A DNA stretch of 41,861 nucleotides from a virus. The position numbers were made by a program, and so were the translations under genes. Location: positions 1 to 41,861 of IMG/VR virus record IMGVR_UViG_3300027779_000055. The stretch is one strand, 5' to 3'. The number at the start of each line of letters is the position of its first letter. Position 1 is the first letter of the stretch. Shown one piece after another: positions 2,737 through 22,767 of the stretch. The notes beneath the pieces are model-generated. The model had not been told where the DNA came from and did not search any database. It saw only the letters and a list, made by a program, of their open reading frames with translations.

Positions 2737-3566
2737 GCAAAGTAGCATTATGCCTTAGCGGCAAAGTAGGAAATATACAAGGGAAATCTGGGTTTTTTGA
2801 CTCTGATCCTCGCGTTTTAATCAAGGGGCATGAGCACTATAAGCGCCATATAATTGACAAGAATGATGTTGATGTATTCGTGCACTGCTGGGATAAAGAA
2901 TTAGAAGAGAAAACAATAGAACTCTATAATCCCATTAAGAGCGTTTTTGAAGAACAAATATACTTCGAAATACCGGAGTACGTCAAAGGAGAAGACGCGC
3001 GCAAGAACAATCATTACAGCCGCTGGTACTCTAATAAGATGGTCAACGAATATCGAAAAGATTATGAAACTGAAAATGGATTTGAATATGACTTCGTCAT
3101 GACAACCCGTTTTGATTTAGCATTTGAAACCGATGTGACGTTCGACAACTTTGATAAGGATTATTTTTATTCAGGAAAATGGTCGGCAGTTATTGATCGT
3201 CATGGAAATGATTTATTTAAGGGCGGCCGCGGCCCCCTCTATGATCTAGTCGCGACCGGCCACCCAATTTTAAAAGAATTAAAGCTGGATACCAAGGGTT
3301 ACCCTAAAAACGACGAAGGGTTTTTAGACTTATGGTTCTTTGCAAATTCAAAGAATTCATCAGACTTTTTCTCCTTGTATGATCATTTAGACGAATATAA
3401 TAAGCCTGGAAATTGTGATACAGATGCCAGCGGAAGAATATCTAATCACAGACTTGTTAAATATCATTTACAAAATCTCGATTTGCTAAACAAATTAAAA
3501 TTTGAATTTCATATGTTTGATGATTTCCCAGAGGTTAGAAGAAAATATTTTGGATGTAGAGCATGA
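2733..3566 (+). CDS. Putative glycosyltransferase-like protein
   Basis: This 277-residue protein begins MSKVALCLSGKVGN, a beta-strand opening seen in nucleotide-sugar-dependent GT-A-like proteins of polysaccharide clusters. It contains VDVFVHCWDKE near residue 46 and YDFVMTTRFDLAF near 119. The RFDL segment, after a predicted strand and ahead of an acidic stretch, sits where many GT-A enzymes carry their metal-binding acidic motif, but no canonical DxD is evident. It overlaps both neighbours by ATGA and lies between a sugar phosphatase and a PhyH oxygenase. A glycosyltransferase role is inferred from these patterns and the operon; it could instead be another capsule protein of unknown activity. 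No signal peptide or membrane segment is apparent, so it is probably cytoplasmic. Confidence 0.5.
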   Translation: MSKVALCLSGKVGNIQGKSGFFDSDPRVLIKGHEHYKRHIIDKNDVDVFVHCWDKELEEKTIELYNPIKSVFEEQIYFEIPEYVKGEDARKNNHYSRWYSNKMVNEYRKDYETENGFEYDFVMTTRFDLAFETDVTFDNFDKDYFYSGKWSAVIDRHGNDLFKGGRGPLYDLVATGHPILKELKLDTKGYPKNDEGFLDLWFFANSKNSSDFFSLYDHLDEYNKPGNCDTDASGRISNHRLVKYHLQNLDLLNKLKFEFHMFDDFPEVRRKYFGCRA

Positions 3567-4420
3567 TAAAAATTAAAATAAATCCATCTTGTGCTTGGGG
3601 CAAAGATGAAGAAATCAAAAGGTATATAAAATCGATTTATGAAAGGCAAGACAAGTATGGTGTAGATATATCAGACGAGTATCTCGCCATCGCCGAAGAT
3701 GTCAATACTAACGGATTCACAAAGGTTGAAAATTTTATAGATCCTGGAAGGTTATTAGCTGTGAAACAAGAGTTTGAAGCAATCAAAGAAAAAGGCGAAT
3801 TACAATATAGCGATTTTTATACTGAGCAAGTATCCCACCCATTACTTACTTGCGACTCCGTATTTAATATCGCATTCGATGATAAAGTAGTAGAAGTGGC
3901 CAAAAATTATTTTAACTGTATGCCGGCCATAACAAATGTCCAATTGAGAAAGAGCAAGGCAACAGAAACCTTAGAACATAATATACCTGGAAACGGTCAA
4001 ACAACGCTATTTCACTGTGATAAGGATAGCCCACGCTTTATTAAATTTTTCTTTTACCTTGACGATGTGGACGAAAACAATGGCCCATTCACTTATACAA
4101 GGGGAAGTCAAATTGAGAAATTTGATGGTTGGGATTCAAAATACAGGTGGGCCCATCGAGAAATAAGCTCTATTTATGGCGAAGATAGAATTATTAAATG
4201 CACTGGTAATGTTGGTGACCTCATTATCGGAAATACAAGTGGTTTTCATAAGGGCTCAAAAGTAGAGAAAGGGGAGAGAACTTTGTTATCAGTTTATTAT
4301 GGCGTACACCCAACTGAGTGGCGCTCGACTTTTGGAGGAAAAATGAAAAAAGAACATTATGAAAGCCTGCCGGACCATAAAAAGGCGCTAGCAGACTTCT
4401 TAGTTAGGAGAGAAACATGA
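3563..4420 (+). CDS. Fe(II)/2-oxoglutarate dioxygenase, phytanoyl-CoA dioxygenase (PhyH) family
   Basis: This 285-residue protein has the double-stranded beta-helix signature of PhyH enzymes. The iron ligands would be H151 and D153 in FHCDKDSPRF and the distal H229 in SGFHKGSK, and R239 in GERTLLSVYY would bind the 2-oxoglutarate carboxylate. The intervening FFYLDDVDENNGPFTYTRGS matches the conserved PhyH core. The family hydroxylates diverse small molecules and also occurs in sugar and natural-product clusters, so a sugar intermediate or glycan is a plausible target here. It overlaps its neighbours by ATGA on both sides, so it belongs to the glycan operon. Family assignment is strong; the substrate is unknown. 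Confidence 0.85.
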   Translation: MIKIKINPSCAWGKDEEIKRYIKSIYERQDKYGVDISDEYLAIAEDVNTNGFTKVENFIDPGRLLAVKQEFEAIKEKGELQYSDFYTEQVSHPLLTCDSVFNIAFDDKVVEVAKNYFNCMPAITNVQLRKSKATETLEHNIPGNGQTTLFHCDKDSPRFIKFFFYLDDVDENNGPFTYTRGSQIEKFDGWDSKYRWAHREISSIYGEDRIIKCTGNVGDLIIGNTSGFHKGSKVEKGERTLLSVYYGVHPTEWRSTFGGKMKKEHYESLPDHKKALADFLVRRET

Positions 4421-5205
4421 AAAAATATGTAATATGTATTCCGGCATCAGACGATTTTGCATTAGCAGCCGCCGTCCTTATTCATTCTATTAAGAAGAAC
4501 TTGAGAGTGGTAGATGACTGTGACTTTGTTGTACCCTACAATAATTTAAATGAAGATAGCATGAACTTGATCAGAAAAGCACACAGTGAAACTATGTTCA
4601 AACCACCTAAAAATTCGGACTTTTATAAACACATACCGCGTACGATTTATGGTGTGGGAAATTTTGATGTATATTTGTCTTTTGAAACATTTTCTCAAAT
4701 AGGATATGAAAAAAGCGTTTACCTGGACGCTGATATGTTGTGTACAGGAGATTTTTCGGATATCATTGAAGATGACAAACAAATCATTTGGAAGTTTCCA
4801 AATTTAGGTATCCTTGTTGCAGGGGCCAAATATCTTACCGGCCATGCTTATGATGAAATGATAAAAGCAGTAATAACAACTGGTATTAAAGATAGACCAG
4901 ACGGTGACCAAGTAACTTGTCAACACTTCTTTAGCCCAAGCAACCCGGATGTCAAAGTCATAACCAACTTATATAATTTCCAAGAGTTCGGAGGCGGCGG
5001 TAAAGGAAATCCTGAACACTACGATGACAACGCTCCAAATGTTAAAGTCATACATTACAGCGGCCGCCGAAAGCCATGGGGCACTGTTTGGGACGGCGAT
5101 GAAAACAACAAGAACTGTATCAGATACGCCACCTTGATGAATGAGAACAATGCGGTTAAGATTTGGTACAAATATTATGATGATTTTAGGGAGAAGTGTT
5201 TGTGA
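4417..5205 (+). CDS. Glycosyltransferase family 8-like protein
   Basis: This 262-residue protein carries the two landmarks of GT8 retaining glycosyltransferases: YLDADMLCTGDF, with the metal-binding DxD at D104 and D106, and a C-terminal HYSGRRKPW starting at H213, the family's HxxGxxKPW motif. It begins with a strand, KKYVICIPASDDFALAAAV, followed by a helix, as expected for the nucleotide-binding half. GT8 enzymes transfer galactose, glucose or similar sugars from UDP-sugars, and bacterial members usually build LPS or capsule. No membrane segment is seen. The upstream junction is ATGA and the downstream junction is GTGA, so it is embedded in the operon. The donor and acceptor are unknown. 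Confidence 0.82.
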   Translation: MKKYVICIPASDDFALAAAVLIHSIKKNLRVVDDCDFVVPYNNLNEDSMNLIRKAHSETMFKPPKNSDFYKHIPRTIYGVGNFDVYLSFETFSQIGYEKSVYLDADMLCTGDFSDIIEDDKQIIWKFPNLGILVAGAKYLTGHAYDEMIKAVITTGIKDRPDGDQVTCQHFFSPSNPDVKVITNLYNFQEFGGGGKGNPEHYDDNAPNVKVIHYSGRRKPWGTVWDGDENNKNCIRYATLMNENNAVKIWYKYYDDFREKCL

Positions 5206-6179
5206 GCTACGACAAGAAAAAGATTTTAATTGCTGGTGGAGCAGGCTATATTGGCACTGAATTATCAAATGACTTAAGTTTAAGAGGATATGATGTAACC
5301 GTGGTCGACCTGTTTTGGTTTGGAAACTATCTTAGCGATGATGTAAAACAAATAAACAAAAATTTGATAGATTTGAAGCAAGAAGATGTTAGAGGATATG
5401 ATGCCGTAGTCTTTTTAGCTGGGTTATCTAATGACCCGATGGCCAATTTTAGTCCGTCAAAGAATTTTATAGAGAACGCCGCAGTACCCACATATCTTGC
5501 CTTTATATCTAAGCAAGCAGGAGTACCGCGGTTTGTATATGCTAGCTCGTGTAGCGTGTATGGGTTTACAGATAATGAGGTCATGGACGAGGACAGTCCT
5601 GTAAACCCGCAGTACCCCTATGGCATCTCTAAATTACAGGGTGAGTATGCAATCATGAAGATGGCAGATGAAGGCTTCAGGCCGATCGCAATGAGAAAGG
5701 GTACTGTCGGCGGCTGGTCTTCACGTATGAGATTTGACTTAGTGGTAAATACTATGACTAAGTATGCGCTATCTCAAGGAAAAATTACGGTTCACAACCC
5801 AAACTTATGGAGACCGCTCATTGATATACGAGATGTAGTAACTGCATATAGAAAAGCTATAATGTGTAGTCTTAACATTTCGGAAGTATTCAATATATGT
5901 GGTGAAAACTATACTATTGGTCGTTTGGCAAATGATGTTGTTAATGAGTTTGCTGCAGCGGGAATGGTGATAGAGGTTGATACACAAAATCGACCAGATG
6001 TAAGAAACTATTTGGCTTCTAATGAAAAAGCTAAAAGAGTGCTAGATTTTACTCCGGAGTTTGGTCCTGCCAATTCAATACAACAAATAATACGCCATGT
6101 AAAAGAAAAAAACATTGACTTAGACAACAAAAGACATTATAATATAAAAACGTTTATGGAATTAGAAGATGAATCTTGA
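5202..6179 (+). CDS. NAD-dependent epimerase/dehydratase (extended SDR)
   Basis: The GTG at 5202 is chosen over the in-frame GTG at 5196 because AGGGAG (5188-5193) lies at a suitable distance from it and it makes a GTGA overlap with the GT8 stop, matching the other operon junctions. The 325-residue protein has the Rossmann glycine motif GGAGYIG (residues 12-18), YASSCSVYG containing the catalytic Ser region near 115, and the active-site YGISK with Y140 and K144. WRPLIDIRDVVTAY near 203 is a typical extended-SDR substrate-domain motif. Enzymes of this class epimerise, dehydrate or reduce nucleotide sugars in the cytoplasm. It could be a 4-epimerase, 4,6-dehydratase or reductase; the sequence alone does not decide. 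Confidence 0.88.
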   Translation: MSYDKKKILIAGGAGYIGTELSNDLSLRGYDVTVVDLFWFGNYLSDDVKQINKNLIDLKQEDVRGYDAVVFLAGLSNDPMANFSPSKNFIENAAVPTYLAFISKQAGVPRFVYASSCSVYGFTDNEVMDEDSPVNPQYPYGISKLQGEYAIMKMADEGFRPIAMRKGTVGGWSSRMRFDLVVNTMTKYALSQGKITVHNPNLWRPLIDIRDVVTAYRKAIMCSLNISEVFNICGENYTIGRLANDVVNEFAAAGMVIEVDTQNRPDVRNYLASNEKAKRVLDFTPEFGPANSIQQIIRHVKEKNIDLDNKRHYNIKTFMELEDES

Positions 6180-6456
6180 GGAATATTATAAACACTATCT
6201 TACACTGCATCAAAGCAAATGGTGCCGGCGACTGCATTTTTTCGGTCAATTAGTAACATTATTTTTACTTTGTGTTATGATAGGTTATAAGGTGAGTATA
6301 GCAGCATATCTTATTTTACCATTTATTATATATCCGTTTGCTTGGTCTGGGCATTTCCTTTTTGAAAAAAACAAGCCGGCAGCGTTTAATAATCCAATAA
6401 AAGCAAAAATTTGTGATTGGATGATGTTTAAAGATATGTTGCTAGGAAAATTATGA
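6169..6456 (+). CDS. DUF962 / Mpo1-like small membrane protein
   Basis: This 95-residue protein matches the DUF962 (Mpo1-like) pattern. An N-terminal YYKHYLTLHQ and LHFFGQ precede two hydrophobic segments (about residues 26-42 and 45-58). These are followed by PFAWSGHFLFEKNKPAAFNN and a DWMMFKDMLLGKL tail. The conserved His residues are those proposed to bind iron in the yeast 2-hydroxy fatty acid dioxygenase Mpo1. In bacteria the family is mostly uncharacterised. The gene overlaps the SDR stop by 11 bases and the aminotransferase start by ATGA, so it is translated with the sugar genes although it is membrane-bound. It may modify a lipid or a lipid-linked glycan; this is inference. Confidence 0.75.
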   Translation: MNLEEYYKHYLTLHQSKWCRRLHFFGQLVTLFLLCVMIGYKVSIAAYLILPFIIYPFAWSGHFLFEKNKPAAFNNPIKAKICDWMMFKDMLLGKL

Positions 6457-7376
6457 TTAAATTAATGCACGTCAATGATTATGTAATTGATACATCTCAG
6501 TTCCGGCCACTACTAAATGATAAGGTGGTCCAGGAGTTCGAAGAGCGCATCGCAGACCATGTGGGCGCTAAGTATGCTTGTGCACTCCACAGCGCGACTA
6601 TGGGCATCTTTATGACCCTTTTAGAAGAAGAGGCTACGACTGTTGAAATACCATCGATTATTCCACCGGTTGTTCCCAACGCTATATTAACTTCGGGACA
6701 CGATATTAAATACCGTGATGACATCAACTGGGTAGGAAGCGCTTATACTTTGCACCGGTTCCAAAATTATAAGATTATAGATTCAGCCCAGCAACTTGAT
6801 AAAAATCAATTTAGTCAACAAGCAGATGATGAAGATCTAATGATATTCAGCTTCTATCCAACAAAACCAGTTGGCAGTATTGATGGCGGTATGATTGTAT
6901 CAAACGATGAGGACAAGATAAAGAGATTAAAGATTCTTACAAGATATGGCACCAACTTTGAAGACAACAGTTGGGAAAGAAAATTTGTATTACCCGGCTG
7001 GAAGATGTACATGAATTCAGTACAAGCTTGGGTGGGCCTAGAAAACTTTAAGAAGCTTGAAAGGAAAGCTAAAAGATATGACGAGATAAGAGAACACTAT
7101 AATAGTGCATTTGGATTATCAAATAAAAGTCGCCATTTATACAGATTGAGGACCGATGACAGAGACGAATTTATGGACTCGCTAAAGGCGGCTGGTGTTC
7201 AATGTGGTATTCATTATCGCTCGGTTCATGACATAGAATGTTATGCGCCAATCACCGAGGTTAATTTGCCGTTATCGATTATGGAATCAAATTCTACAGT
7301 TAGCATCCCATATCACGAAATGATGACAGACGAAGAAGTAGAAGTTGTAATAAAGGAGGTCAGTAATGCTATCTGA
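6453..7376 (+). CDS. DegT/DnrJ/EryC1/StrS-family PLP sugar aminotransferase
   Basis: This 307-residue protein has the fold signatures of nucleotide-sugar aminotransferases: an N-terminal FEERIADHVGAKYACALHSATMG segment, and FYPTKPVGSIDGGMI, in which K138 is the expected PLP-binding lysine. RYGTNF and the ending LPLSIMESNSTVSIPYHEMM match the C-terminal substrate region of the family (commonly LP.....L.....LP.). The family is usually about 360-400 residues, so this copy is compact, although the catalytic Lys and both ends are present. Directly downstream is an FdtA/QdtA-like ketoisomerase, the usual partner that makes the 3-keto sugar for 3-amination. Together they suggest a 3-amino-3,6-dideoxyhexose or similar product. 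An ATGA junction couples it to the DUF962 gene. Confidence 0.85.
   Translation: MIKLMHVNDYVIDTSQFRPLLNDKVVQEFEERIADHVGAKYACALHSATMGIFMTLLEEEATTVEIPSIIPPVVPNAILTSGHDIKYRDDINWVGSAYTLHRFQNYKIIDSAQQLDKNQFSQQADDEDLMIFSFYPTKPVGSIDGGMIVSNDEDKIKRLKILTRYGTNFEDNSWERKFVLPGWKMYMNSVQAWVGLENFKKLERKAKRYDEIREHYNSAFGLSNKSRHLYRLRTDDRDEFMDSLKAAGVQCGIHYRSVHDIECYAPITEVNLPLSIMESNSTVSIPYHEMMTDEEVEVVIKEVSNAI
7353..7360 (+). promoter_or_regulatory. Strong ribosome binding site for the ketoisomerase gene
   Basis: AAGGAGGT lies five bases before the ATG at 7366 and inside the end of the aminotransferase gene. It is the closest match to the anti-Shine-Dalgarno complement noticed in the operon and fixes the downstream start. 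Confidence 0.7.
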
Positions 7377-7731
7377 AAACGGAAGCAAAGAAACCGGAAT
7401 ACTGCGGTATATGGAATTAACGGATTTAAAATTTATCCCAAGAAGAATGTATTATATCACGGATACACCAAAGGGCGAAATCCGCGGAAAGCATGGACAC
7501 TATGAAGATCAGCAATACATATTTTGTGTGCAAGGTCAAGTAAAAGTAGATCTTTATTCAAAAGATGGGGTAGAGAATATAATGCTTACACCGGGAGAAG
7601 TTGTATTTCTTGACAGAATGGTGTGGGCCCAGCAAGAATACATGACCGGCCACGACATCCTATTAGTTTTATGTTCAACTGCATTCAATCAAGCAGACTA
7701 TTTCTATGATAAGGAAGAGGTACACCAATGA
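7366..7731 (+). CDS. FdtA/QdtA-type sugar 3,4-ketoisomerase (cupin)
   Basis: This 121-residue single-domain cupin matches the WxcM/FdtA/QdtA family. It has an N-terminal beta-strand block, PKGEIRGKHGHYEDQQY with H43 and H45 (the family has RGxHAHxxxxQ), VQGQVKVDLYSKDG, LTPGEVVFLDRMVWA and a C-terminal FNQADYFYD resembling the conserved YDxxDYI. These enzymes isomerise dTDP-4-keto-6-deoxyglucose to a 3-keto sugar, which the DegT-type aminotransferase then aminates. The start is set by an excellent Shine-Dalgarno, AAGGAGGT at 7353-7360, giving an 11-base overlap with the aminotransferase gene. Neither the thymidylyltransferase nor the 4,6-dehydratase step is certain within the window, so the host may supply the keto sugar. 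Confidence 0.85.
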   Translation: MLSENGSKETGILRYMELTDLKFIPRRMYYITDTPKGEIRGKHGHYEDQQYIFCVQGQVKVDLYSKDGVENIMLTPGEVVFLDRMVWAQQEYMTGHDILLVLCSTAFNQADYFYDKEEVHQ

Positions 7732-8027
7732 TTATTTACGTTGATATCGACGAGACAATTGCTAATACCCCAGAAGATAGAAATTATAGCCTTTCAGAGC
7801 CTATTGTAGAAAATATTCAGAAAGTTAATAAGTACTACGATGAAGGACACACTATAGTATACTGGACCGCCCGCGGCAGTGGTACAGGCCTTGACTGGTT
7901 TAATGTTACCAAAGACCAGCTTACTGCCTGGGGTGCAAAACATCACGAATTAAAGCTCGGTAAACCCGTCTATGATCTGTTTATAGATGATAAAGCTATT
8001 AACAGCTATACATGGGAAAAGACATGA
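7728..8027 (+). CDS. Second EcbF/BcbF-type HAD phosphatase
   Basis: This 99-residue protein has HAD motif I VDIDET (D6 and D8), WTARGSGTG near residue 46 as motif II, and GKPVYDLFIDDKAIN near the end as motifs III/IV. It aligns by eye with the phosphatase at 2362-2736 through the shared pattern TARG, then QLxxWGxKxHxLxxGK, then YDLxIDDKA, so the two are paralogues or independently acquired members of one group. It overlaps the ketoisomerase by ATGA and is the last gene of the operon; a 63-base gap follows. A role in removing phosphate from a sugar-phosphate intermediate is inferred. It is slightly shorter than its paralogue at both the N-terminal region after motif I and the C-terminus. Confidence 0.8.
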   Translation: MIIYVDIDETIANTPEDRNYSLSEPIVENIQKVNKYYDEGHTIVYWTARGSGTGLDWFNVTKDQLTAWGAKHHELKLGKPVYDLFIDDKAINSYTWEKT

Positions 8028-8749: not shown

Positions 8750-9086
8750 ATTAGAAATTGTTCTTATTTGCGTATCTACTATTTCAATTTTATTGAATAT
8801 TGGAGTTTTTGCCTATGCCAGAGCATGCGTTGGGCAGTTATTATCTGTTTCAGAAGAGTTTGGAGATTTAAAAGAACTAATAAGTAATTTTTCTTCACAC
8901 CTTTCTGAAGTATATAAACTAGAAATGTTTTATGGAGATCAAACTCTGCAAAGCTTGGTCAAACATGCAAAGTCCTTGGACGAACAACTCGAAACATTCG
9001 AGTATATTTATAGCCTAACAGAAGAAGAATCGACAGAAGAACTAACAGAAGAAGAATTATTAAATGATCTCACAACTACCGACTAG
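8742..9086 (+). CDS. Small single-pass membrane protein of unknown function
   Basis: This 114-residue protein opens with an N-terminal hydrophobic segment (about residues 5-25, EIVLICVSTISILLNIGVFAY) followed by a helical region and a Glu-rich tail (EEESTEELTEEELL). The topology looks like an anchored protein with a soluble coiled domain. It overlaps the zinc-ribbon gene by 8 bases and the sigma gene by 23 bases, so it is translationally coupled to both. No family is recognised. It could be an inner-membrane factor or an Rz/spanin-like protein, but no lysis partner is visible nearby. Confidence 0.65.
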   Translation: MTKLEIVLICVSTISILLNIGVFAYARACVGQLLSVSEEFGDLKELISNFSSHLSEVYKLEMFYGDQTLQSLVKHAKSLDEQLETFEYIYSLTEEESTEELTEEELLNDLTTTD

Positions 9087-9774
9087 AAAAACTAGAGCAA
9101 AAAGAAGAAAAAATCATTATTTTACAAAAGTTCATGAAGACGCAATCATTAGATATGCACAAACAACCTGTATTAAAGAGCGAACCGATCTTTACGTAAA
9201 TTATATTGCCCCCGCTTTTAATGAAATGGTGGACAAGATTGTGTTTACGTACAAATTCACTAATTTGCCAAATATAGATTATTTACGTGATGAATGCAAG
9301 ATATGGTTAATGACCATACTTGACAAATATGATTCCACTAAGGGCTCAAAAGCCTTTTCTTATTTTAGTGTAATTACCAAAAATTGGTTTATTCATAAAG
9401 TAAAAAGACAGCAGAAACGCAATAAGCGAGAAGTTGATTTTGATAATATTGCTAAGCATTATGAAGAAGAATACTTGTCGACTGATGATTCTTATTTAAA
9501 AGATAGAGAAGTTGCTGAATTTTGGAACACATTTTATACAGAGCTTGATTCGTGGGATGAATCCCAAATGAAAGATAATGATCTGAGAGTGTACAAGGCA
9601 ATCAATATTTTATTTGAATCAAAAGACGATATTGAAATTTTCAACAAGAAAGCTATTTATCTTTACCTGCGCGAGATTACGGGTCTAAATACAAAACAGA
9701 TCGTAAACTCGCTCAAGAAATTTAGAAAAAAATATACTAATTTTAAAATTGATTGGGAGAACGGTGAATTGTGA
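9064..9774 (+). CDS. T4 gp55-like late-transcription sigma factor
   Basis: This 236-residue basic protein has a sigma region 2-like core. Around residues 75-125 it reads DECKIWLMTILDKYDSTKG, then KAFSYFSVITKNWFIHKVKRQQKRNKRE, the pattern of gp55-type phage sigma factors (yDxxKG.kaFsYF...NW). No clear region 4 helix-turn-helix is seen, as expected for gp55, which relies on a sliding-clamp co-activator instead. It is longer than T4 gp55 (185 residues), with extra N-terminal basic residues and a C-terminal extension. Its location just before the tail genes suggests it directs their late transcription by host RNA polymerase. The start is weakly supported by its RBS and overlaps the previous gene by 23 bases. 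Confidence 0.75.
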   Translation: MISQLPTRKTRAKRRKNHYFTKVHEDAIIRYAQTTCIKERTDLYVNYIAPAFNEMVDKIVFTYKFTNLPNIDYLRDECKIWLMTILDKYDSTKGSKAFSYFSVITKNWFIHKVKRQQKRNKREVDFDNIAKHYEEEYLSTDDSYLKDREVAEFWNTFYTELDSWDESQMKDNDLRVYKAINILFESKDDIEIFNKKAIYLYLREITGLNTKQIVNSLKKFRKKYTNFKIDWENGEL

Positions 9775-10070
9775 GCGACAAAAATATAGATAATTTGATT
9801 ACTGAAGCGCTAGATAATATCAGGAACGATCGTAAAGTCGCAAGAGAATTTCTAAATGAAATTGCAAATCAAATTGCGGCCGATGCCGAACAAAATAAGT
9901 ATCTAAGCCCTGTCGCAGCAAAGCATATAGAGACCATGCAGCGTTCCAATGAACAATTGGTAAAAATAATTGGTATCAAACAAAAAGACAAAGACAAGAC
10001 CCTTGACTTATCAGAAGATGATAAGTCAAGTTTATACGATATAATCCAGGGAAATCCCGCCAATGGCTAG
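9771..10070 (+). CDS. Small protein of unknown function (99 aa)
   Basis: This starts with GTG in a GTGA overlap with the sigma factor stop and ends by overlapping the first hub-like gene by 8 bases. The product is highly charged and helical (LITEALDNIRNDRKVAREFLNEI, and later AAKHIETMQRSNEQLVKIIG), with a Lys/Asp-rich segment KQKDKDKTLDLSEDDKSS. The size and helical charge pattern could suit a small terminase-like or DNA-binding phage protein, but no motif proves that. Only its existence and its co-transcription with the sigma factor and tail genes are well supported. Confidence 0.6.
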   Translation: MSDKNIDNLITEALDNIRNDRKVAREFLNEIANQIAADAEQNKYLSPVAAKHIETMQRSNEQLVKIIGIKQKDKDKTLDLSEDDKSSLYDIIQGNPANG

Positions 10071-11160
10071 GGACTATATAGATTGGACTGAATTTGATTC
10101 CCCTATGGCCTCGTTGGATTTAGTTAAAAATTCAATTAAAGAATCAATTGAATATGATGCCTATGGAAAGAAGAAAAACTTTAAAGCTATTGTTCTTACC
10201 CCGGCAAAAAGAATCGGCGCCGTCGAGGCGAAAGCTTTGGGAATCCCGGGAAAAGAGGGTATGACATTCCAAAGTCCGGCCTTCAAATTTAAAATCAGGA
10301 TCGTAGAAGATAATTCTCCGCATATATTACTTCCTGATCCCTGTAATTTAGCAGTCAATGCAGACAGAAGATTTGTTGAATCCATAATTGAATTACATAC
10401 GGATGTAGTATTTTTCAGGACTAACGGTCTACAACCCCCGGGCGCCGGCGATCTCATTGAAATAAAACTAATTAAAAACGATTTTTCTTATGATCTGCAA
10501 AAAGCAGAGTTTGTAAAAGTAATAGCTAGAAATTCAAGCCCGGAGACATTTTTGAGTGATAAAGGCTGCACCTTGATGTTCGATAAATTTGAGAACTTAG
10601 AAGCTTTTACTTCCACTAATGCACCAACCATCAATTCACCATCCGGCAACAATCTGGTTATAAGTACATCCGATTCTGGTAATCCATTATTAATATACTT
10701 TTATCCCGGTGTTGGTTACGGAACGCAGCCTTATGTCAAGAAAGTTATAGAGGGGCTAAATATTGGCCCCAATACTATAATAATTCTTGGAGAAACAAAC
10801 AGGACATCTTTCAGTAGTATGGAAGAAACAGCTAAAGCAGCGCTGCAGGGAAAAAACCCAAGTTCAGTTAAAGTTGGTGGCTGGTCTGGTGGTGCGATTG
10901 GGCTTGCAAGTGCATTGGGTTCCGGACAACCGTTTAATGCTATAATATATGGAGATCCATCGCCGCCAGCCCTGATTGGTAAAGCCCATCGCGATGCAAA
11001 AATGTATTATAATCCTACCAACTGGAAAGGAGACCTCATACATTTGGGCGAAAAACAAAAGACCCTAGCCGCAGAGATGGGCTCCCGCGCCGAGCTTCTT
11101 TCTGAAAATCATAATCAAATTCTTACAAAGACATTAAAAGAATTAATAGGAATAGGGTAA
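10063..11160 (+). CDS. Baseplate hub-like protein with C-terminal serine-hydrolase domain
   Basis: This 365-residue protein is built from two parts. The first ~185 residues are shared with the next gene (opening DYIDWTEFDSPMASLDL, then IPGKEGMTFQSPAFKFKIRI, PPGAGD and NDFSYDLQKAEFV) and look beta-rich, consistent with an OB-fold-like module as in the central hub/spike of contractile tails. The rest resembles an alpha/beta-hydrolase: a strand LLIYFYPGVGYG near 214, the nucleophile elbow GGWSGG with S275, a following strand ending in YGDPSPP (D298) and a late His (H327 in IHLGEKQ or H350 in SENHNQ). Membership of the triad beyond S275 is provisional. It may cleave an ester or amide on the host envelope during entry. 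It overlaps the upstream gene by 8 bases. Confidence 0.7.
   Translation: MARDYIDWTEFDSPMASLDLVKNSIKESIEYDAYGKKKNFKAIVLTPAKRIGAVEAKALGIPGKEGMTFQSPAFKFKIRIVEDNSPHILLPDPCNLAVNADRRFVESIIELHTDVVFFRTNGLQPPGAGDLIEIKLIKNDFSYDLQKAEFVKVIARNSSPETFLSDKGCTLMFDKFENLEAFTSTNAPTINSPSGNNLVISTSDSGNPLLIYFYPGVGYGTQPYVKKVIEGLNIGPNTIIILGETNRTSFSSMEETAKAALQGKNPSSVKVGGWSGGAIGLASALGSGQPFNAIIYGDPSPPALIGKAHRDAKMYYNPTNWKGDLIHLGEKQKTLAAEMGSRAELLSENHNQILTKTLKELIGIG
10474..10514 (+). repeat. 41-base exact repeat, copy 1
   Basis: This stretch inside the first hub-like gene is identical by eye to 11619-11659 in the second. It encodes the conserved end of the shared N-terminal module (KNDFSYDLQKAEFV). The surrounding module is only partly conserved, with another near-identical block at 10351-10414. 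Confidence 0.8.
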
Positions 11161-11191
11161 ACTAATAAAACGTATATGGTGATATTTACTG

Positions 11192-11206
11192 AAAGGAGTA
11201 TATTAT
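11192..11206 (+). promoter_or_regulatory. Translation-initiation element, second copy
   Basis: AAAGGAGTATATTAT precedes the ATG at 11208 and exactly repeats 8078-8092. It lies in the 47-base gap after the first hub-like gene, which also holds ATAAAACGTA (11165-11174) and GATATTTACT (11181-11190). A GATATTTATT string occurs similarly ahead of the gene at 40212, so the gap may contain a late promoter; that part is speculative. Confidence 0.45.
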
Positions 11207-11207
11207 A

Positions 11208-12359
11208 ATGGCTAGAAATTATCTAGACTGGACCGAATTTGATTCTCCGATGGCATCATTGGACTTATTTTCGCATTCAATTAAGTCCGGAGTCAAATAT
11301 GACGCATATGGAGAACAAACCCTTTTTAAAGCAATTGTTTTAAATCCTGCAAAAAGAATTGACACTGTAGAAGCGAAATCTCTAGGCATACCAGGGAAGG
11401 AAGGTATGACATTCCAAAGCCCTGCGTATAAATTTAAAATAAGAATTGTTGAGACGAATTCTCCGCACATGCTCCTTCCCGATCCTTGTAATCTAGCAGT
11501 CAACGCAGACAGAAGATTTGTTGAATCCATAATTGAGTTACATACGGATGTAGTATTCTTTCAAACTGGACAAATAGATCCCCCGGGCGCCGGAGATATC
11601 GTAGAAGTAGAATTACATAAAAACGATTTTTCTTATGATCTGCAAAAAGCAGAGTTTGTGAGAACAATAGCAAGGAATTCAAGTGCCGCAACTTTTTTGA
11701 GTGATAAAGGTTGTACAATGACATTTGATATATTTGATAAGTTAAAAATCTTTGTTGATACACCACTTCCTCACGGCGGAACAGGGGTCAATGTGGTACC
11801 AGTGGGTTCCAATATTGCTGTATCCCAAGCCATGGCAAATTTTGTAGTCGATCTTCGAAAGCTAATATCAGCACAGCAGATTGAAATTATTTATATTACT
11901 TCCGGGGTTAGAACACCAGAAGCACAAGCAAGAGCTTTGGTCACTAAAAGAAATATTAACAAATGTAATTCAGCAATTGTTGGCAAACCCTCCGCCGGCG
12001 ACCCATGCTGGCCTATTTATAAACTGTATGCACAAAAACAATTAATCCTAGAAGGACTACAAGTTAATAACGATGTTTCGTCCATGGCGGCCGTATTCTC
12101 AAGACAAGTTGCTAATGGTAAATTTTTATCCGGACATATGACCGGCCTGGGTATTGATATGAGGACAACCAACCTTACCGAACACCAGCGCGCCATGCTT
12201 ATGAAAGCTTGTGAATCTCTTGGCGCCAAGACCGTCTATGAGACTGATCCAAAACATCTTCATCTTGGAATACCAAAATCTTATCGTGAGGGAAGCAGCA
12301 GTAATTTAGCTTCCAATACACCAACCGATTCAGCAGGTGATGAACCATCATCCGCATAA
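11208..12359 (+). CDS. Baseplate hub-like protein with C-terminal M15/LAS-type zinc peptidase domain
   Basis: This 383-residue paralogue of the preceding protein shares its first ~185 residues, then switches to a peptidoglycan peptidase domain. The zinc-site pattern is SGHMTGLGIDMR (H310 and D317) and DPKHLHLGIP (H350 and H352, the HxH). IIYITSGVRTPEAQARAL upstream matches the conserved strand and YTSGYRS-like helix of D-Ala-D-Ala carboxypeptidase/endopeptidase relatives. Such domains cut stem peptides of the cell wall, and placement on a hub-like module parallels the T4 gp5 lysozyme, which opens the peptidoglycan for the tail tube. A Ser/Pro-rich tail of about 20 residues ends the protein. 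The enzyme class is well supported; the hub role is inferred from context. Confidence 0.8.
   Translation: MARNYLDWTEFDSPMASLDLFSHSIKSGVKYDAYGEQTLFKAIVLNPAKRIDTVEAKSLGIPGKEGMTFQSPAYKFKIRIVETNSPHMLLPDPCNLAVNADRRFVESIIELHTDVVFFQTGQIDPPGAGDIVEVELHKNDFSYDLQKAEFVRTIARNSSAATFLSDKGCTMTFDIFDKLKIFVDTPLPHGGTGVNVVPVGSNIAVSQAMANFVVDLRKLISAQQIEIIYITSGVRTPEAQARALVTKRNINKCNSAIVGKPSAGDPCWPIYKLYAQKQLILEGLQVNNDVSSMAAVFSRQVANGKFLSGHMTGLGIDMRTTNLTEHQRAMLMKACESLGAKTVYETDPKHLHLGIPKSYREGSSSNLASNTPTDSAGDEPSSA
11619..11659 (+). repeat. 41-base exact repeat, copy 2
   Basis: Identical by eye to 10474-10514. A second near-identical stretch, 11495-11558 versus 10351-10414, differs at only about four positions, while other parts of the two modules have diverged. 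Confidence 0.8.
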
Positions 12360-12416: not shown

Positions 12417-13400
12417 ATGTCATTAACAGGCGATCCAGTATCAGCATATGAGCCGAAAGGCGAAACCACGGTATCGGAAGACTTAGAAAGAAATCCTGAA
12501 GCTTTAAATATGGTACCCGCAAATAGCGGACTCTATCATACAAATGTGCCAATGAGGGATTTAAAGTTTAAAATTGGTTCTGGAGAATCAGTTATAAATC
12601 ACAGGGGCTGCTATATCACCATGGGTGGTGATAGACCTGGAAGTATATTTAGTGGTTTTGGAGCAAGAGGTTTTGACGGAACTGACACCATTGATTTGTG
12701 TGTCGGCCGCGGCGCCTCAGCCCGCGGAGGAAAAGGCGTTCAAGAAGGATCCGTAGTTTCGAATATGTTTTCATCAGATGCGTCAAGAATTTATATAAGT
12801 CAATTAACTTATATTGATAAAAACTTTGGAATTGCCCAAGGTAAACACCAAAAACCGAAGCCAAGAGCAGGAATTGGTATAAAATCAGACGATATTCGAA
12901 TTATTGGCAGAAACAGTATTAAGATTGTTACCGGCCGTGGTGATGGATTCCGCGGCCATGGTTCCAGTGGTGAAACCAATGCATTGGGTGGTAAATCATC
13001 TGTTGGGCCGACAATCGAATTAATTGCTGGAAACTATGACGACTCAAAATCTGTATACGGCGGCCTATACAATACACCAGAAAGGGTTCCGTATCTGCAA
13101 TCAGCGGTTAAGGGTGAGAACCTTGTTAAAGCTTTTGAAGAATTGAATCAAATCATCGGAAATATTTGGTCTGTTGTTTACAACCAAGCTTTAATTAATG
13201 CTGGTTATACTACAGTAAACTCTGTTGATGTCTGGCGCCCATGGGTTGTGACTGCTGGTGTTCCCTATTCAATATTAATGAACAGTTATGCCCTGATGGC
13301 ATTGTGGGCAACGAGAGGCAAGATGGTTGCATGGGAACAATATTATACTCAAGACAGTGGCTATCGTTCCATAAGAAGCTCAAACGTATATTTAACTTAA
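12417..13400 (+). CDS. Spike-like virion structural protein (putative baseplate)
   Basis: This 327-residue Gly/Ser-rich protein has short beta-repeat-like segments: GIKSDDIRIIGRNSIKIVTG near residue 152 and GPTIELIAGN near 200. These recall the strand repeats of phage spike and VgrG/gp5 beta-prism tips. Glycine-dense stretches (GFGARGFDGTD, GRGASARGGKG, GRGDGFRGHGSSGE) interrupt them. The C-terminal part is different, with amphipathic helices (ENLVKAFEELNQIIGNIWSVVYNQ) and aromatic residues. It lies after the two hub-like enzymes and before the 2382-residue protein, so a place at the tail tip or baseplate is likely. The family is not recognised and the spike idea is inference. TGGAGA at 12408-12413 supports the start. 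Confidence 0.55.
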   Translation: MSLTGDPVSAYEPKGETTVSEDLERNPEALNMVPANSGLYHTNVPMRDLKFKIGSGESVINHRGCYITMGGDRPGSIFSGFGARGFDGTDTIDLCVGRGASARGGKGVQEGSVVSNMFSSDASRIYISQLTYIDKNFGIAQGKHQKPKPRAGIGIKSDDIRIIGRNSIKIVTGRGDGFRGHGSSGETNALGGKSSVGPTIELIAGNYDDSKSVYGGLYNTPERVPYLQSAVKGENLVKAFEELNQIIGNIWSVVYNQALINAGYTTVNSVDVWRPWVVTAGVPYSILMNSYALMALWATRGKMVAWEQYYTQDSGYRSIRSSNVYLT

Positions 13401-13412
13401 AAAGGCAATAAA

Positions 13413-16400
13413 ATGGCAGAATCAAAATACTTAAAATTTCAAGATCTCGATCGCGACGGGCTTATAGACGTTTGCGACGATATTATAGAAGCAGAAGAAG
13501 TCCCTTGTAAGGCACCCTGTATCCCGAATCCTTTGGAAATTGTATCCGATTGGAAAGAGAGAGGGGTTGTACCGCGGCTGAACAAAAAATTCTGTTTGTT
13601 TGAAGTTACATTCGTCACCCCTCATAAAACTACGGCTTCTCAGATTATTTTGGATGAGGGAAGCGAAGATAAGATTGCCCATGCATTGAGGCTTAGATTT
13701 GAAGAATTCAAAATGGAAGCAGTCGAAAGCCTGTTAGAGTTTCAAGACAAGCTTATTGACGACGATACAAGGAAGATCGTTGCGGATGAAATACAATTTA
13801 CTAAATGGGATATAGATCCGAGACCCAACTCTAGACTTAAGTTATTGTACTCAGTAAGGTTTGATGTCCTTTTCAACTTACCAGAGGCTCCACCTGAACC
13901 AGAAGAGGAAGAAGAAGATGAACCCGGTCGTATAGCCGTAACATATAGCGCAGGTCAGATGAGATCTCAAATGATCAGAGTTAGAAAAGGTTTGAATTTT
14001 TATGGTAGATTACTCAAAGTTTATCGAGCAATCGGCGAAGGAAATGCATATTATCTAAAAGATAGAACAATCTTTAATTTAGATATGTATGGAGACTCTA
14101 CTATTTTTGATAGTGGTATGCTATCTGATTTATTCGATAACCTAGATGGGTTTTTGGATTCGAAAGGCTTTAGACTCCCGGGCGAATTCTTTGGAATGTT
14201 TAGCGCCGACTCTCTGGTCACCAAACTTAAATTTGTTTTTAAAAATTACAAACTTGTAAAACTGAAAGTTTGGACTGTGGCTTGTGCGAACAAGCCCACT
14301 GTTTTTGGGCCAAGGAGACTAAAATCTCTCAACGCCTCGGGCGCCTGGAAAGACAGAACAAATGTCGCTTATTTTGCGCAATTGCCACAGATGTACACCG
14401 GTCTCAATGCCAGGCAACAAATTCCATGGACTGAGTTTATAGAACAATACACATATCCAAAAGTCTTTTTTGATATAAAAGAAGAAAACACAGAACGCTC
14501 AATTGCCTCTTGCGTAGGCGAAGCGCTTGATAATGAATTTAAAGATTTAGGACAGGATATTCTAGATGATGTTTTCTCTATGGGAGACGCCGTTGCCTAT
14601 ATGTTTAGACAAGCAGTTTGTAGAGGAGATATATCAGATAGTATAAAAGACGATGAGTTGATGGGAGCAGCCCTAGGCCCAGATGGTGTTGATCCCACCA
14701 AGGTCTTCGCCATGGCCCAAGAACAACGATATAAAAAATTAGAATCAAGCCAAAACACATTTGTCATCTTATGTGTAGCCGTACTTTCTTCATCAACTCA
14801 GTGGGGTCCACTTAAAAGTAAATTATCTGATATGTTCCAGTTAGGAATATTCAGAATTAAAGAGTGTGGCCTTCTTGACATGTTAATGTCAGCAATTCAG
14901 TGTTTAACTAGTGGTATGACCATGGACGAGATGCTTAGCCAAATGGTTAGTGCTGCGCTCAAAGCAATGAGCATAGAAAATTTTGGTGAATTATTTGTTG
15001 GACTACCTCCGGAGAAGCAAGAAGAATTAGAAGCAATGGTCAAGAAGCAATTGGAAGAAGGGGAATTTTTCCAAAGTGTGGGGGTCATTGCGAGACCATG
15101 GGAAGCTCAAGAAATAATTGATAAAGAGAGAGCAGAAACGATTGAAGGAGCCTACGAATCCCAAGTGACCCCAAACACCTCCGGAGCATATCAATCTTCA
15201 GGGGGGTTTGTTGAAGAACGTTCTGTCATGTCATCATTCGACGCCGGTATTGGTGAGCTAGAAGAAATCCCTGTCGACAATATTATGCAGGCGTATCTTA
15301 AAGCCATAGTGATGGTATATAGTGATAATTTGCTATCCCTGGTAGATGAGTTAAACAAATTCCCCGGCGCCCAGATTGTTAGCAGCATCTTGACTTTTCT
15401 TGATTGCCCGCACCCACCTTTCATGACTCCGTCAATTGCAGACTTCATTAAAGATCTAACACTTCCGTTCTGCAGAAACATGAACGAGTTTAGAACCACG
15501 CGCTGGATGTTTGAAAACCCGCTTAATTACTTTGCTGATTTTGCGGATATCACTAGACAACTTTGGGTTCTCGCCAAGCTTGTAATTATGGAAATCATTG
15601 CGATTATCCTATTCAATATTATGATCAAGTTGTGTGAAATCATCGGCAAAGCGCTTTGTAAGGCTCTAGAAATAACTGGAGATGTTATAGCGGCTTTACC
15701 AGCCGCAATGAGCGGCCGCACTACGTTAGCCGCCGTTATTAAGGAGTCAATCTGCGGCGAAGATGCTGATGACGAGAAGGTAAACGATACAGTTATTGAC
15801 CTCATGAGCCAATTGGGTCTTGGGGCCGCGGCCTATGCGGACCAAGAAACTACTCTTCAGTTTGGTATGGATTTATCAGCGGCCGTCACTCAACAAGAAA
15901 TGATTGAAGCGCTACTTGGTAACCCACCAAAGGCTTTCCTTGAAGCTGCAGACCAATTAATAGAATATGAATACCCTCAGTTTAGAGAATCAATGCCGAA
16001 CAAAAGATCGATTGGAAAATTCTTTGGTAATGTTGGCAACTTGACCCCATTAAGTTATAGGGCACAACTTGAGGACTTTATTGCTCTTGATCCCGGAGAT
16101 GATGATGAGGTTCTACCAGCAAATCCCAGCATCTGCGCTAATCCACAGAAAATAGAAGAGTTCAGAAAGATGCGCGCCCAGCTTTTAGAAGGAAGAACAA
16201 GTCCTAAACAGGCGCACGATCTTTTCTGCAATTTCAGAGAAGAGAATATGCAAGATTTGGGAGACTTAGCCAACGTTTTAAACAAAGGATTTACATCGCA
16301 ATTTGCTGATCAGTTTCCGCCCTTATTCTCAGAACCGGGCTGTGATGATGGGTTGATTCCATATGAATCCCCACAGGCCGCGGCAGTTGTCATGGGCGCC

Positions 16401-19400
16401 ATGGGAGGATCTTTGGATTCTTTGGAAATGGCATACTTGGAAGATATGCTCGGTAATGGTAGTTTCTGGAACTCGGATTCATCTTGGGGATTCATCAATA
16501 TGATTATGTCCGATACTCAAGGAAATCCATTAACAGCACACCATAGAAAGGCTTTTAACAATAAATCCTACGTAAATTTTGCAACTAATCTTAAAAATGG
16601 TGGAGAATCCACTTCTGGGTTCTTTTCCTCTTTCCAAAGTTCTGCAGGCTTCAGTGCCCAAGAGGGACAATTTCCTTATTATATTGGTGAATGGTTGATG
16701 AGACAGTTTTTAAATGCCGGCTGGGAGGCCGGCGGAGACGGTTCGCGAACCAATAAAATTATTAAACCCGGTAATTTTAAATTGGAGCATATGGGAGAAG
16801 ACTTAAGAAGAAGTATGGTCGACAAAGGCGGATTTATATCAAACAATTCAGCCAAAGGCAAGAAAAAGCACTGGGTAGATTTTGAAAAATTACAATATAA
16901 TAATTTATTTGGCTCTATGACCCAAGGGGTTAATTTGTTTATGATTCCAGATTTCGGCTATAATACAACCGTGTCCGTTGATGAAAGCATTGAAAAGGTT
17001 GTTATCACAAGAGAAATCAGAAAAGGTGGAGCTAACACCGGTGAAGACTCTCAAGCATGGAAAAGAGACGGCGCAGATATCTCACTAGATTTCCGGGATA
17101 ATGCGGCTGGAAGCAGGCTTGGACCTATAGGTACCGACGGCAAGTGGGCCAGTTCAAATAATGGAACCGGCCGCGACACATCTGCCTTTAGCACCAGTAC
17201 AGAATGGTCATATGGGTTTGATGTTAAGTGTTATTATCATGATATTTATGAAAATGATGATGGAAGGGTCTTAAATAGATTTGATGATAATATGCGTGTT
17301 GAGGTTATTGAAAAATTAAATTTTGGTTCTAAACATATAGGTCCTTTGGGCTCAGCCCTCGAAGACGACTTCACGAAAGTTCCAATGTTCGATTTACCAA
17401 ACGGGATTGAGAATATACCGATTGTGGGTTGGGCTCTTGAAGGGCTAATCAACTTAATACTTTTTCCTTTTTCACAATTGATTGGGCGCGCCATCGCCCG
17501 GGCAAAACTGAGAGGCAGTGAAAGAATAATTAGAGCAAGAGAGTTTGAGTTTGTTGCCACGGATGATGCCCTCGATGTTTTTAATCAAGTGCAAGATCCC
17601 GTAGAAAGCAAGCTAAACCCTCTTCCAAAATTATCTGATTTTCCTAAATTTAAAACTGTGCTACGCAGTTTGCCATCTGTATCTCCTCCTGTTTTGATGT
17701 TGTCTGATTTGACCGGCCTAACCACTGCCGAATCTAAACAAAGATATGACGCAACAATGAATTATTTATATCAGAATTTTTGTTATGAAATAGGCAGTAA
17801 TAAAAATGGTTTCCTCTATGGTGCAAATTACGACTTTTTAACAAACAGTGATATCGACTACGGAATGATCGATAATGGCAAATTTATACCTTATGACGGC
17901 TACATGGTGCAAGACGTGGATGGTTTTGATCGAGCACCAAAGGAAGAAGACATGATTTTGGGAGTAAGTCGCGATTTTTATAATAATGGAGCAGATGCTC
18001 GCGTCATTTATTTAGATCCGAAAACTTTCGGTGGAAGTTATACAAAGCCGCCTCTTTATATAAGACCCAATAAACACAATGGTTGGTATGGGTATGTCAA
18101 GGTGTTGTTCCCTGAGTATACTCCCTGTAAACCACATAGACAAGATTTAATTGATTTTGATGAAATTAAGGGATACATAGACAAATTCTATCCACAATTA
18201 GCTGAGGATCCTAGACTTACATCAGGTAGTGAAGAATGTACCAGGGAGGTGCCATTTAAGAGAATTCTTAATAGACAAGCAAAAATCGGCCTCTATACTA
18301 CAATTTTAGCCGGCATCCGGATTTATGCAAGTACTCATATTTTTAAAGCTATCCCTACTTTTTCAAAGATTATGCCAAAATTTCCTGACAATTTTAGTTC
18401 AATTTACTCCGCATATATTGTAGAGAGGATGGAAGAAGATTTTAAAGATGCCCAGGGAGCCTTCTGGGAGGCTTTTACTACCTTCAAAGATGAAGAGTTC
18501 TGGTATGCGTTCTTGGAGCAAGCAGTGGAGTGTTATGACTTCTTAGTAAACGCCGGCGCAATGGACCCTCCGACAGAGGGAGGCCACCTACAAGATGCAT
18601 TTGACAATATCAATAATCTACAGACTGATTATCCGTTTACTTATCGACCAACGAGTACTCGTCGGTACCGTCGTTCTGATGGCGAAAACGTAAAACAGAC
18701 GGTACTCGGTATGCACGATAAGAAGGTAACCGGCGAAGCTGGCTGGTTCCAGAGTTTAGAAGGTATCAGAGCTGATCAAAATCTTGAAGCGGTCCAATCG
18801 GTAGAAGAATATGCAAAGATAATCTTACAACAACTTGTAAATTTCGAACTTAGCAAAATGGGCGAAAAAATGGTTAACAATATGAGACTCCAAGGCTTCA
18901 ATCCGGATATCTTTGATTTAGATTATTATATTTTTGAAAAACTTTGCGTGTCGAGTAATTTAAGATTTGCGGGCCCAAGTATTATAGAGGTACCCGCTGG
19001 CCTCCCAACTCCCACCAACCCAGATCCGAATAACCAAGGTGATACTTTCCCAGGACCCTATTATACTTCTGGCGGTGAATTTAGAGTAGCTGTTAATAAT
19101 AATGAATCTGATGGGTTTAACTATGCCGATGAATTTGTTGGGTATTATCACGCACATTACGATGAAGTAGGCGACATTATTTACATGATAGGAGAATATC
19201 ATTCAGAAGATCCAGAAAATGGCTCACATGACATTCTCACTCCCATCGATCAGCTAGTTTCTGTTAACACACAGGGGTACATTGAACACCGGCAAGACGA
19301 AGATAAAATAGCAGGGTATGCCGGCGGCGATGACGACGGCCCCACTGACGATGATGATTCTGATCCGACATCCGGCGATGGCCGACAAAGTTCACCTGAT

Positions 19401-20590: not shown

Positions 20591-20956
20591 ATGTCTTTAG
20601 CTGTTAAATTACCAATCAGAAGATCCACATCCGATGGATACCAAATGATCAACGATTTCCAAACGTTAATTAGACAAAATTTAAAAATGCTTGTTTTGAC
20701 TGCTCCGGGTGAGAGAATCATGGAACCAGATTTTGGTGTTGGAGTTCGAAATTATCTTTTTGAGAATTTTAATAATATGACGTACAACTCCATAAATACT
20801 AAGATTCGAGAACAAGCAACTAAATATTTACCTGTGATTGATATAATAGAAATTAGTTTTACTGACAGTGATCCAGACAGAAACTTTCTTGCAATAAAAA
20901 TATTTTTCTCTATTCCGAACATTGGAATCACAGATTTGTTAGAATTTACTATTTAA
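20591..20956 (+). CDS. gp25-like baseplate wedge protein (GPW/gp25 family)
   Basis: This 121-residue protein matches the GPW/gp25 family in length and pattern: an N-terminal SLAVKLPIRRSTSDGY and QTLIRQNLKMLVLTAPGERIM, then PDFGVGVRNYLFENFN (the family's PGER..P.FG..l..lFE), then a strand-rich end. T4 gp25 is an inner wedge component next to the hub, and homologues are found in all contractile injection systems, although the lysozyme-like activity once ascribed to it is doubtful. It is followed after 14 bases by the gp6/J-like gene, the same neighbourhood as in other contractile tails. The gap before it (20562-20590) contains CTATTTATAAACAGG, which includes a weak RBS. Confidence 0.88.
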   Translation: MSLAVKLPIRRSTSDGYQMINDFQTLIRQNLKMLVLTAPGERIMEPDFGVGVRNYLFENFNNMTYNSINTKIREQATKYLPVIDIIEISFTDSDPDRNFLAIKIFFSIPNIGITDLLEFTI

Positions 20957-20970
20957 AAAGAGGGTTTTAG

Positions 20971-22767
20971 ATGGCCAACGATCAGAAAAAGTTTGTACCA
21001 ATAAACTATACTAGCAGGGAGTTCAGCACAATACGTGATGACCTTCTGGAGATGGCAGAGAGATTGTATCCTGATTCGTTTCAAGACTTTAGTGAAGCTT
21101 CATTTGCTTCTCTAATGGTTGACGCGGTCGCTTATGTTGGAGATCAACTGTCGTTTTATACAGATTACAATGTTAATGAATCTTTTCTCGACACAGCATA
21201 TCAATACAATAACATTTTGAGACACGGCCGTGTACTGGGTTATAAATTCACTGGCCGCCCATCGACGTTTGGAGAAGTTTCGTTATTTATTATGGTCCCG
21301 ACTTCTACTACTGGCCTAGGCCCAGATAGTGATTACATACCAATTTTAAAACGTGGAACTCAATTTACCGCGACAAATGGATTAAACTATTCTTTAATAT
21401 CGAACATAGACTTCTCGGATTCAAAATACCCGATTGTGGTAGCTAGAGTAAGTAATTCTACGGGCGCCCCGACTCATTATGCCATTAAAGCGTATGCTAC
21501 AGTCGTATCGGGTATTTTTACAACAGAGAAAATTGATGTTGGCTCATACGAAAGATTTAAACGAGTCAGATTAGGTACTGCAAATATCTCAGAAATTATT
21601 TCTGTGTTTGATTCAGAAGGCAACGAATATTTTGAGGTTGATTATCTTGCACAAGATATGGTATATAAAGAAATTGCTAATAAAAATTATAAATCTGATA
21701 ACGTTCCATCGATTATTAAGCCTTTTCTTGTTGCTAGAAAATTTACTGTTGAAAGAAACAGAAACAATGCATTTCTTCAATTTGGTAGTGGAAAAGCAAA
21801 TGAAAGTTCGGTTGTTGCAGATCCTCAGTCTGTTGCTATGGATATATTTGGTAAAGATTATACAACTTCAACAACTTTTGATCCCACACGTTTAAGCAAA
21901 AATGAAAGTTTTGGAATCGTTCCATCTAATACTTCCCTTACTGTCACACTCAGAACCACAAACCCAACTAATTCAAATATAAGCTCCGGCCAATTAACGG
22001 CCATTGGCGCCAAATTCTTTCAATTTAATGATAGAGCCAGTCTAATAAGAACTAAACTTATTGCAGTCGAGGGATCTCTAGAAGTAAATAATGAAACACC
22101 AATCACTGGCGATGTTACGAACATGGATTCCTCCGAGGTTAAACAAAAAATATTTGATACTTTCCCAACCCAGGATAGGGCAGTCACGCAGGCGGACTAC
22201 GAAAACATCGCGTATAGGATGCATTCTAAATTCGGATCGGTCAAAAGAGTTTCCGTTCAGAAGGACGCAAACTCAGAAAAAAGAAACTTAAATATGTACG
22301 TTATTTCCGAAGATAGTTTTGGTAAATTGATTAAAACCAATTCTACAATAAAAAGAAATTTAAAAACCTGGATTAATCAGTATAGAATGATTAATGATAC
22401 GGTGGATATTTTAAATCCCTATATACTAAATTTTGGAATCGAATTCAGTATAAAAACGGTTTCAGGAGCAGATAAATTTACTACAATTAATAACTGCATA
22501 AACAAATTAGCTAGCTTCTATTCGTCCGGCTTTTTCATTGGTGAACCGTTTTCAATTAGTGATATATACGCACAACTTAAAGCTGTCCGCGGCGTTTTAG
22601 ACGTCTTGAAAGTAAAAGTTGTTAATAAAACTGGAACAAATTATTCAGGTGCAACAATTCAAATTGAGAAGAATCTTTCTCCTGACGGAAATATGATAAT
22701 TGTACCTAAAAACGCCATAGTAGAGTTAAAGTATCCAGCATCAGATATCTCAGGAAAGTCTAGATAA
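20971..22767 (+). CDS. gp6/J-like baseplate wedge protein
   Basis: This 598-residue protein has the T4 gp6/baseplate J-like arrangement. The N-terminal INYTSREFSTIRDDLLEMAE and SEASFASLMVDAVAYVGDQ are typical of marine T4-like wedge proteins. The later QDRAVTQADYENIAYRMHSKFGSVKRVSV (about residues 396-425) matches the conserved J segment, where a strand and helix follow a T..DYE motif. Two copies of such a protein dimerise with gp25 and gp53-like partners to make the baseplate wedge core. The RBS is AGAGGG, before the ATG at 20971. It shares TAATG with the next gene. Family assignment is strong; sub-assignment to gp6 rather than generic J is by similarity of the N-terminus and length. Confidence 0.85.
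   Translation: MANDQKKFVPINYTSREFSTIRDDLLEMAERLYPDSFQDFSEASFASLMVDAVAYVGDQLSFYTDYNVNESFLDTAYQYNNILRHGRVLGYKFTGRPSTFGEVSLFIMVPTSTTGLGPDSDYIPILKRGTQFTATNGLNYSLISNIDFSDSKYPIVVARVSNSTGAPTHYAIKAYATVVSGIFTTEKIDVGSYERFKRVRLGTANISEIISVFDSEGNEYFEVDYLAQDMVYKEIANKNYKSDNVPSIIKPFLVARKFTVERNRNNAFLQFGSGKANESSVVADPQSVAMDIFGKDYTTSTTFDPTRLSKNESFGIVPSNTSLTVTLRTTNPTNSNISSGQLTAIGAKFFQFNDRASLIRTKLIAVEGSLEVNNETPITGDVTNMDSSEVKQKIFDTFPTQDRAVTQADYENIAYRMHSKFGSVKRVSVQKDANSEKRNLNMYVISEDSFGKLIKTNSTIKRNLKTWINQYRMINDTVDILNPYILNFGIEFSIKTVSGADKFTTINNCINKLASFYSSGFFIGEPFSISDIYAQLKAVRGVLDVLKVKVVNKTGTNYSGATIQIEKNLSPDGNMIIVPKNAIVELKYPASDISGKSR

Follow-up and report, generated by a model that had tools for sequence, protein, structure and literature searches.

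Hub lysozymes are usually regarded as a matter of one protein and one enzyme. VgrG, which belongs to the type VI secretion system (T6SS), is a fusion of gp27-like and gp5-like parts, with the effector placed after the spike. Specialised (‘evolved’) VgrG proteins are spike-complex proteins with interchangeable C-terminal domains, and specialised VgrG heterotrimers with different effectors have been described for T6SS (PMC10433429). In phage T4, gp5* combines an OB-fold, the fold of the gp5 N-terminal domain, with a lysozyme, and is cleaved from the beta-helix spike gp5C (PMC3004832). Flavobacterium phage immuto and Microcystis phage Mel-JY01 have gp6 genes related in sequence to that of the DNA studied here, and in both a hub-like gene occupies the corresponding position, between sigma-factor and baseplate genes. 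Their presumed hub is a single gene with, by eye, a barrel-like N-terminus and a spike-like C-terminus but without an obvious enzyme. Profile-based searches and comparisons of this hub gave no significant match.

The window analysed here is an entire IMG/VR record of 41,861 bases. Its tail region carries, in order, a gp55-like late sigma factor (9064..9774, + strand; phrog_234, E=5.5e-4; 31% identity to immuto35A_152), which occupies the same relative position in immuto; a conserved 99-aa gene (9771..10070, +); ORF A (10063..11160, +; 365 aa); ORF B (11208..12359, +; 383 aa); ORF C, a putative spike (12417..13400, +); a 2382-aa protein; a gp25-like baseplate wedge protein (20591..20956, +; phrog_261, E=8e-22); and a gp6-like baseplate wedge protein (20971..22767, +; phrog_6, E=9e-18). 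The 3' end of the 99-aa gene overlaps the start of A. ORFs A and B are both intact and lie next to each other; the 47 nt between them include a ribosome-binding site for B, AAGGAG (11193..11198, +).

As in T4 gp5, a predicted OB-fold-like N-terminal domain precedes an enzyme that cuts the envelope, and genes of the baseplate lie nearby. Unlike gp5, the module has no sequence similarity to it detectable in PDB, Pfam and PHROG searches, and the putative spike, with a fold known from prediction, is the separate gene ORF C rather than a part cleaved from one chain. Further differences are that the enzyme can be exchanged and that copy number ranges from one to three. Interchangeable C-terminal domains on a presumed spike-complex protein recall specialised VgrG. 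In contrast to VgrG, the order here is N-terminal module then enzyme, with the spike candidate apart, and the system is that of a phage, whose enzymes presumably aid entry.

Two features of the surrounding DNA are also worth recording. Sugar and surface-modification genes form a block (159-8027) adjoining the tail genes, comprising an APH-like kinase, PhyH oxygenase, glycosyltransferase 8, NAD epimerase, DegT aminotransferase and FdtA/WxcM; its gene order is kept in the related locus L066 for the portion that L066 covers. The tail region further contains two giant ORFs, one of 3505 aa (24295-34812) with lectin-like Laminin_G_3 domains, and the 2382-aa ORF (13413-20561), which has no Pfam family match.

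A shared module with two different enzymes

The original prediction described A and B as adjacent paralogues that share an N-terminal module and end in different enzymes, marked by GGWSGG in A and by SGHMTGLGID and HLH in B. This description holds. By BLASTP, the two proteins are 71% identical over 208 aa (E=1e-108), with the similarity confined to their N-termini; residues 1-182 (10063..10608 in A and 11208..11753 in B, both +) are 77% identical, and the C-termini are unrelated. At the DNA level, identity per 60 nt is mostly 70-90% over codons 1-180, with one block at 58%, and falls to 27% past codon 180. Because of this collapse, the module has a sharp edge.

The duplication that produced A and B is lineage-specific. 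Their closest relative, L066/L149, has one copy only, of the B type. The tree groups A with B as sister copies (100/90) and places the single-copy L066 outside them (100/98). The ratio dN/dS between the two modules is about 0.11, with dS at 1.25 and near saturation, and therefore points to purifying selection on both copies. Sister copies within a single locus were also recovered in L118 and L142 (100/99 each) and in L119 (100/98), so several rounds of duplication with subsequent enzyme exchange have taken place.

Peptidases of the M15/LAS type are recognised by SxHxxGxAxD and HxH zinc-ligand motifs and an SGxR motif upstream. The M15-type domain of B (11790..12281, +) contains this motif set, as TSGVRT at residue 231, SGHMTGLGID at 308-317, in which Gly replaces Ala, and HLH at 350-352. 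Matching M15 motifs are conserved in L066, L070 and L172. Many relatives match Pfam VanY, the M15/LAS family in question, but B itself has neither a Pfam match nor an M15-family profile match; it is linked weakly (E=4.5e-4) to L133, which is filed under M15 by motif. It represents a divergent M15 subtype, common to L066 and L172. The peptidase of B probably cuts peptide crosslinks of peptidoglycan.

The C-terminus of A (10648..11157, +) carries GGWSGG at residues 272-277, with Ser275 as candidate nucleophile. This GxSxG motif is followed by an Asp and a His in the canonical alpha/beta-hydrolase order, and all three residues of the putative triad (Ser275, Asp298 and His350) are kept in a homologue in locus L181 (E=7e-16). 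In the AF2 model, most of residues 265-325 have pLDDT below 50. The domain has no match in Pfam, PDB or cultured phages, a pattern scan of 84,980 bacterial and archaeal species genomes returned no homologue, and its sole relative found is that of L181/L182. It is, by its alpha/beta-hydrolase-like motif pattern, a predicted orphan serine hydrolase, and probably an esterase that would act on envelope acyl groups.

A bounded cassette with exchangeable enzymes

Direct searches with A and B against Pfam, PHROGs, PDB and INPHARED returned nothing, and neither A nor B, used singly to scan viral contigs, retrieved a relative. Relatives were fetched from viral contigs through the gp6-like gene, then an alignment of ORF C, then an alignment of the N-module, and the fetched loci were screened for N-module and ORF C by HMM search. 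In IMG/VR, this identified 119 loci with both components, which reduce to 75 distinct cassettes. By sequence, the N-module family has no representative in Pfam, PHROGs, PDB or cultured phages.

The layout of the cassette is constant. ORF C lay directly downstream of the N-module proteins at every locus checked. This held for 33/33 loci retrieved with the module as sole query (gap -93 to +219 nt) and for each of the 75 distinct cassettes. Both borders are visible in 67 of them, with the 99-aa gene marking the upstream edge and ORF C the downstream one, and the whole lies inside the stretch from sigma factor to baseplate. These complete cassettes hold one (54 cassettes), two (8) or three (5) copies of the module, and never more than three.

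Some copies depart from the usual form. In divergent relatives, the module opens very large proteins directly upstream of ORF C (L065, 9491-14041, 1517 aa; L143, 2185-5823, 1213 aa; L144, 3631-5811, 727 aa). The first copies of two tandem cassettes are enzyme-free (L119, 148-813, 222 aa; L142, 1553-2161, 203 aa), ending after the module as if they were structural placeholders only.

Across the relatives, the slot holds more than a dozen kinds of enzyme, mostly peptidoglycan hydrolases, and the C-terminal enzyme is freely swapped among module proteins. Pfam identifies VanY/M15 (the commonest, with VanY matched by 24 of the 75 members), M23, Amidase_2, DUF2272, Muramidase, Phage_lysozyme2 and Phage_lysozyme; the groups LysYQF, NNNVAG and YkuD-like are defined by motifs and clustering only. 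The Phage_lysozyme domain, which is of the T4 type, is on L175, and this locus would repeat the OB-plus-lysozyme layout of T4 gp5* (PMC3004832). Dual-specificity-type phosphatases (L096, L113, L124, L152, L155 and L162; motif HC-T/A-HG-x-DRTG) and an SGNH hydrolase (L130) are called from weak Pfam matches below the cut-off, backed by motifs. The phosphatases partly share descent in the tree. The phosphatase copies always come first in the cassette, on presumed tail-tip proteins; we know of no tail-tip phosphatase in the literature.

The distribution of these enzymes differs with copy number. Phosphatase, SGNH or serine-hydrolase domains are present in 9/15 tandem cassettes versus 0/60 single ones (Fisher 4e-8, kinship ignored) and, among complete cassettes only, in 8/13 versus 0/54 (P 2e-7, kinship ignored). 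Within a tandem cassette, assigned enzyme classes never repeat (shuffle P=0.014, kinship ignored). In L181, an M15 copy comes first and is followed by the copy with the homologue of the A hydrolase. The same enzyme-type pair has thus arisen on a different module, which lies on a different branch, and in reversed order. The L181 arrangement also led us to drop the idea that the slot beside ORF C is reserved for peptidoglycan hydrolases, as a serine hydrolase is found there. On current domain assignments, the distribution of enzymes fits a mixed hub that would act on two envelope layers.

A proposed place for the module at the tail tip

The fold of the N-module was modelled with AF2 and compared with PDB by Foldseek. 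In A, block-mean pLDDT is 69-95 over residues 11-160, and the PDB neighbours are mainly OB-folds (ribosomal uS12 and uS17, and RPA), all of them weak (best E=7.6e-3, probability up to 0.91). The top 50 PDB matches include no phage hub. Among matches from a viral library, a marine-virus protein named ‘Peptidase M23B’ ranks first (E=5.6e-7). Two further matches are A0A1B1IUR3 and A0A1B1IUR4, whose consecutive accessions suggest that they may be another tandem pair. The model of ORF C (mean pLDDT 81.5) is beta-rich with long C-terminal helices and has no PDB match, so its proposed role as spike rests on position and appearance. No sequence similarity of the N-module to gp5, gp27, VgrG or cultured-phage hubs was detected, and hhalign comparisons of ORF C and of the N-module with the presumed cultured-phage hubs were negative. 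PHROG labels such as tape measure and baseplate hub were rejected as evidence for a hub because the matches fall on the enzyme parts and not on the N-module.

The anticipated modular platform with swapped enzymes is thus strongly supported by the 75 distinct cassettes. The further proposal that this platform is a hub or spike component stood in part: the OB-fold neighbours in PDB, the location between sigma factor and baseplate genes and the member with a T4-type lysozyme speak for it, but gp5 and gp27 did not appear among the matches listed and the hub profile comparison failed. The suggested structural comparison with these two T4 proteins gave a confident module and weak OB-fold neighbours, and neither gp5 nor gp27 was among the fold matches listed. 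The assignment of the predicted module to a hub or spike is supported but not proven.

The reading that we favour, and consider probable, places A and B at the tail tip of a contractile-tailed, T4-like marine phage, as paralogous lysins from a gp5*-like slot that has duplicated to accommodate a second activity. Each protein would consist of an adaptor with an OB-fold, similar to the N-terminal domain of T4 gp5*, and an enzyme that differs between the two, and ORF C would supply the spike as a gene of its own. After a recent tandem duplication, B would have retained the M15 peptidase and A would have gained the serine hydrolase. Both would dock at the spike or tail tip through the common module and be carried into the envelope by tail contraction, where B would cut peptidoglycan peptides and A would strip acyl groups off another component. 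For both proteins, we infer presence in the virion, docking at the spike and substrates.

The composition of the complex is a separate matter. The ceiling of three copies agrees with a threefold site and hence with a mixed trimer, as in specialised VgrG (PMC10433429). By this analogy, it is possible, and we propose it tentatively, that the cassette is a phage counterpart of VgrG heterotrimers. The one spike site of each virion would be filled by one to three different OB-fold paralogues, one of them a peptidoglycan hydrolase and the others an esterase, SGNH hydrolase or phosphatase for a different envelope layer. Both proteins could instead belong to the tail tip with each trimer homomeric, either A or B being used per virion or the two being stacked separately, so that no mixed hub exists. 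The T4 gp5 homotrimer makes this the default, and no computed result points to contact between A and B; yet a range of one to three copies suits a three-subunit site, heterotrimers have a precedent in T6SS (PMC10433429), and we judge exclusively homomeric trimers to be rather unlikely. It is unlikely, too, that the module serves to load enzymes onto ORF C in the manner of cargo, as an adaptor associated with the spike or tail rather than a gp5-like structural subunit. The missing profile match to known hubs and the enzyme-free first copies of L119 (222 aa) and L142 (203 aa) would suit such an adaptor. Against it, no cassette found lacks the module, which always adjoins ORF C, as expected of an essential structural part, and a few loci encode it fused into larger proteins (727-1517 aa).

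Two further explanations are much less likely. That A is a recent redundant duplicate with a functionless new C-terminus accords with its lineage specificity and orphan domain, but is very improbable given the dN/dS of the module, the Ser, Asp and His kept in the independent L181 homologue and the integrity of both ORFs. Least probable, to the point of being barely credible, is that A and B are intracellular enzymes of lysis and release (endolysins): many domains do match PHROG endolysin families, but these matches lie in the enzyme part, and the fixed location in the baseplate region, the presence of the N-module on every enzyme type and the linkage to ORF C all argue against it.

Taking A and B as tail-tip lysins, a large, uncultured and apparently mostly marine group of phages keeps a dedicated, bounded slot in which enzymes are swapped and up to three gene copies are present. 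The cassettes provide a catalogue of envelope-active enzymes, several of them without close Pfam models, together with a natural attachment module. Recognisable non-peptidoglycan enzymes are seen only where a second copy exists, which poses a testable question, namely whether a contractile tail tip can carry a mixed set of envelope enzymes. If it does, a single tail contraction would deliver the whole set.
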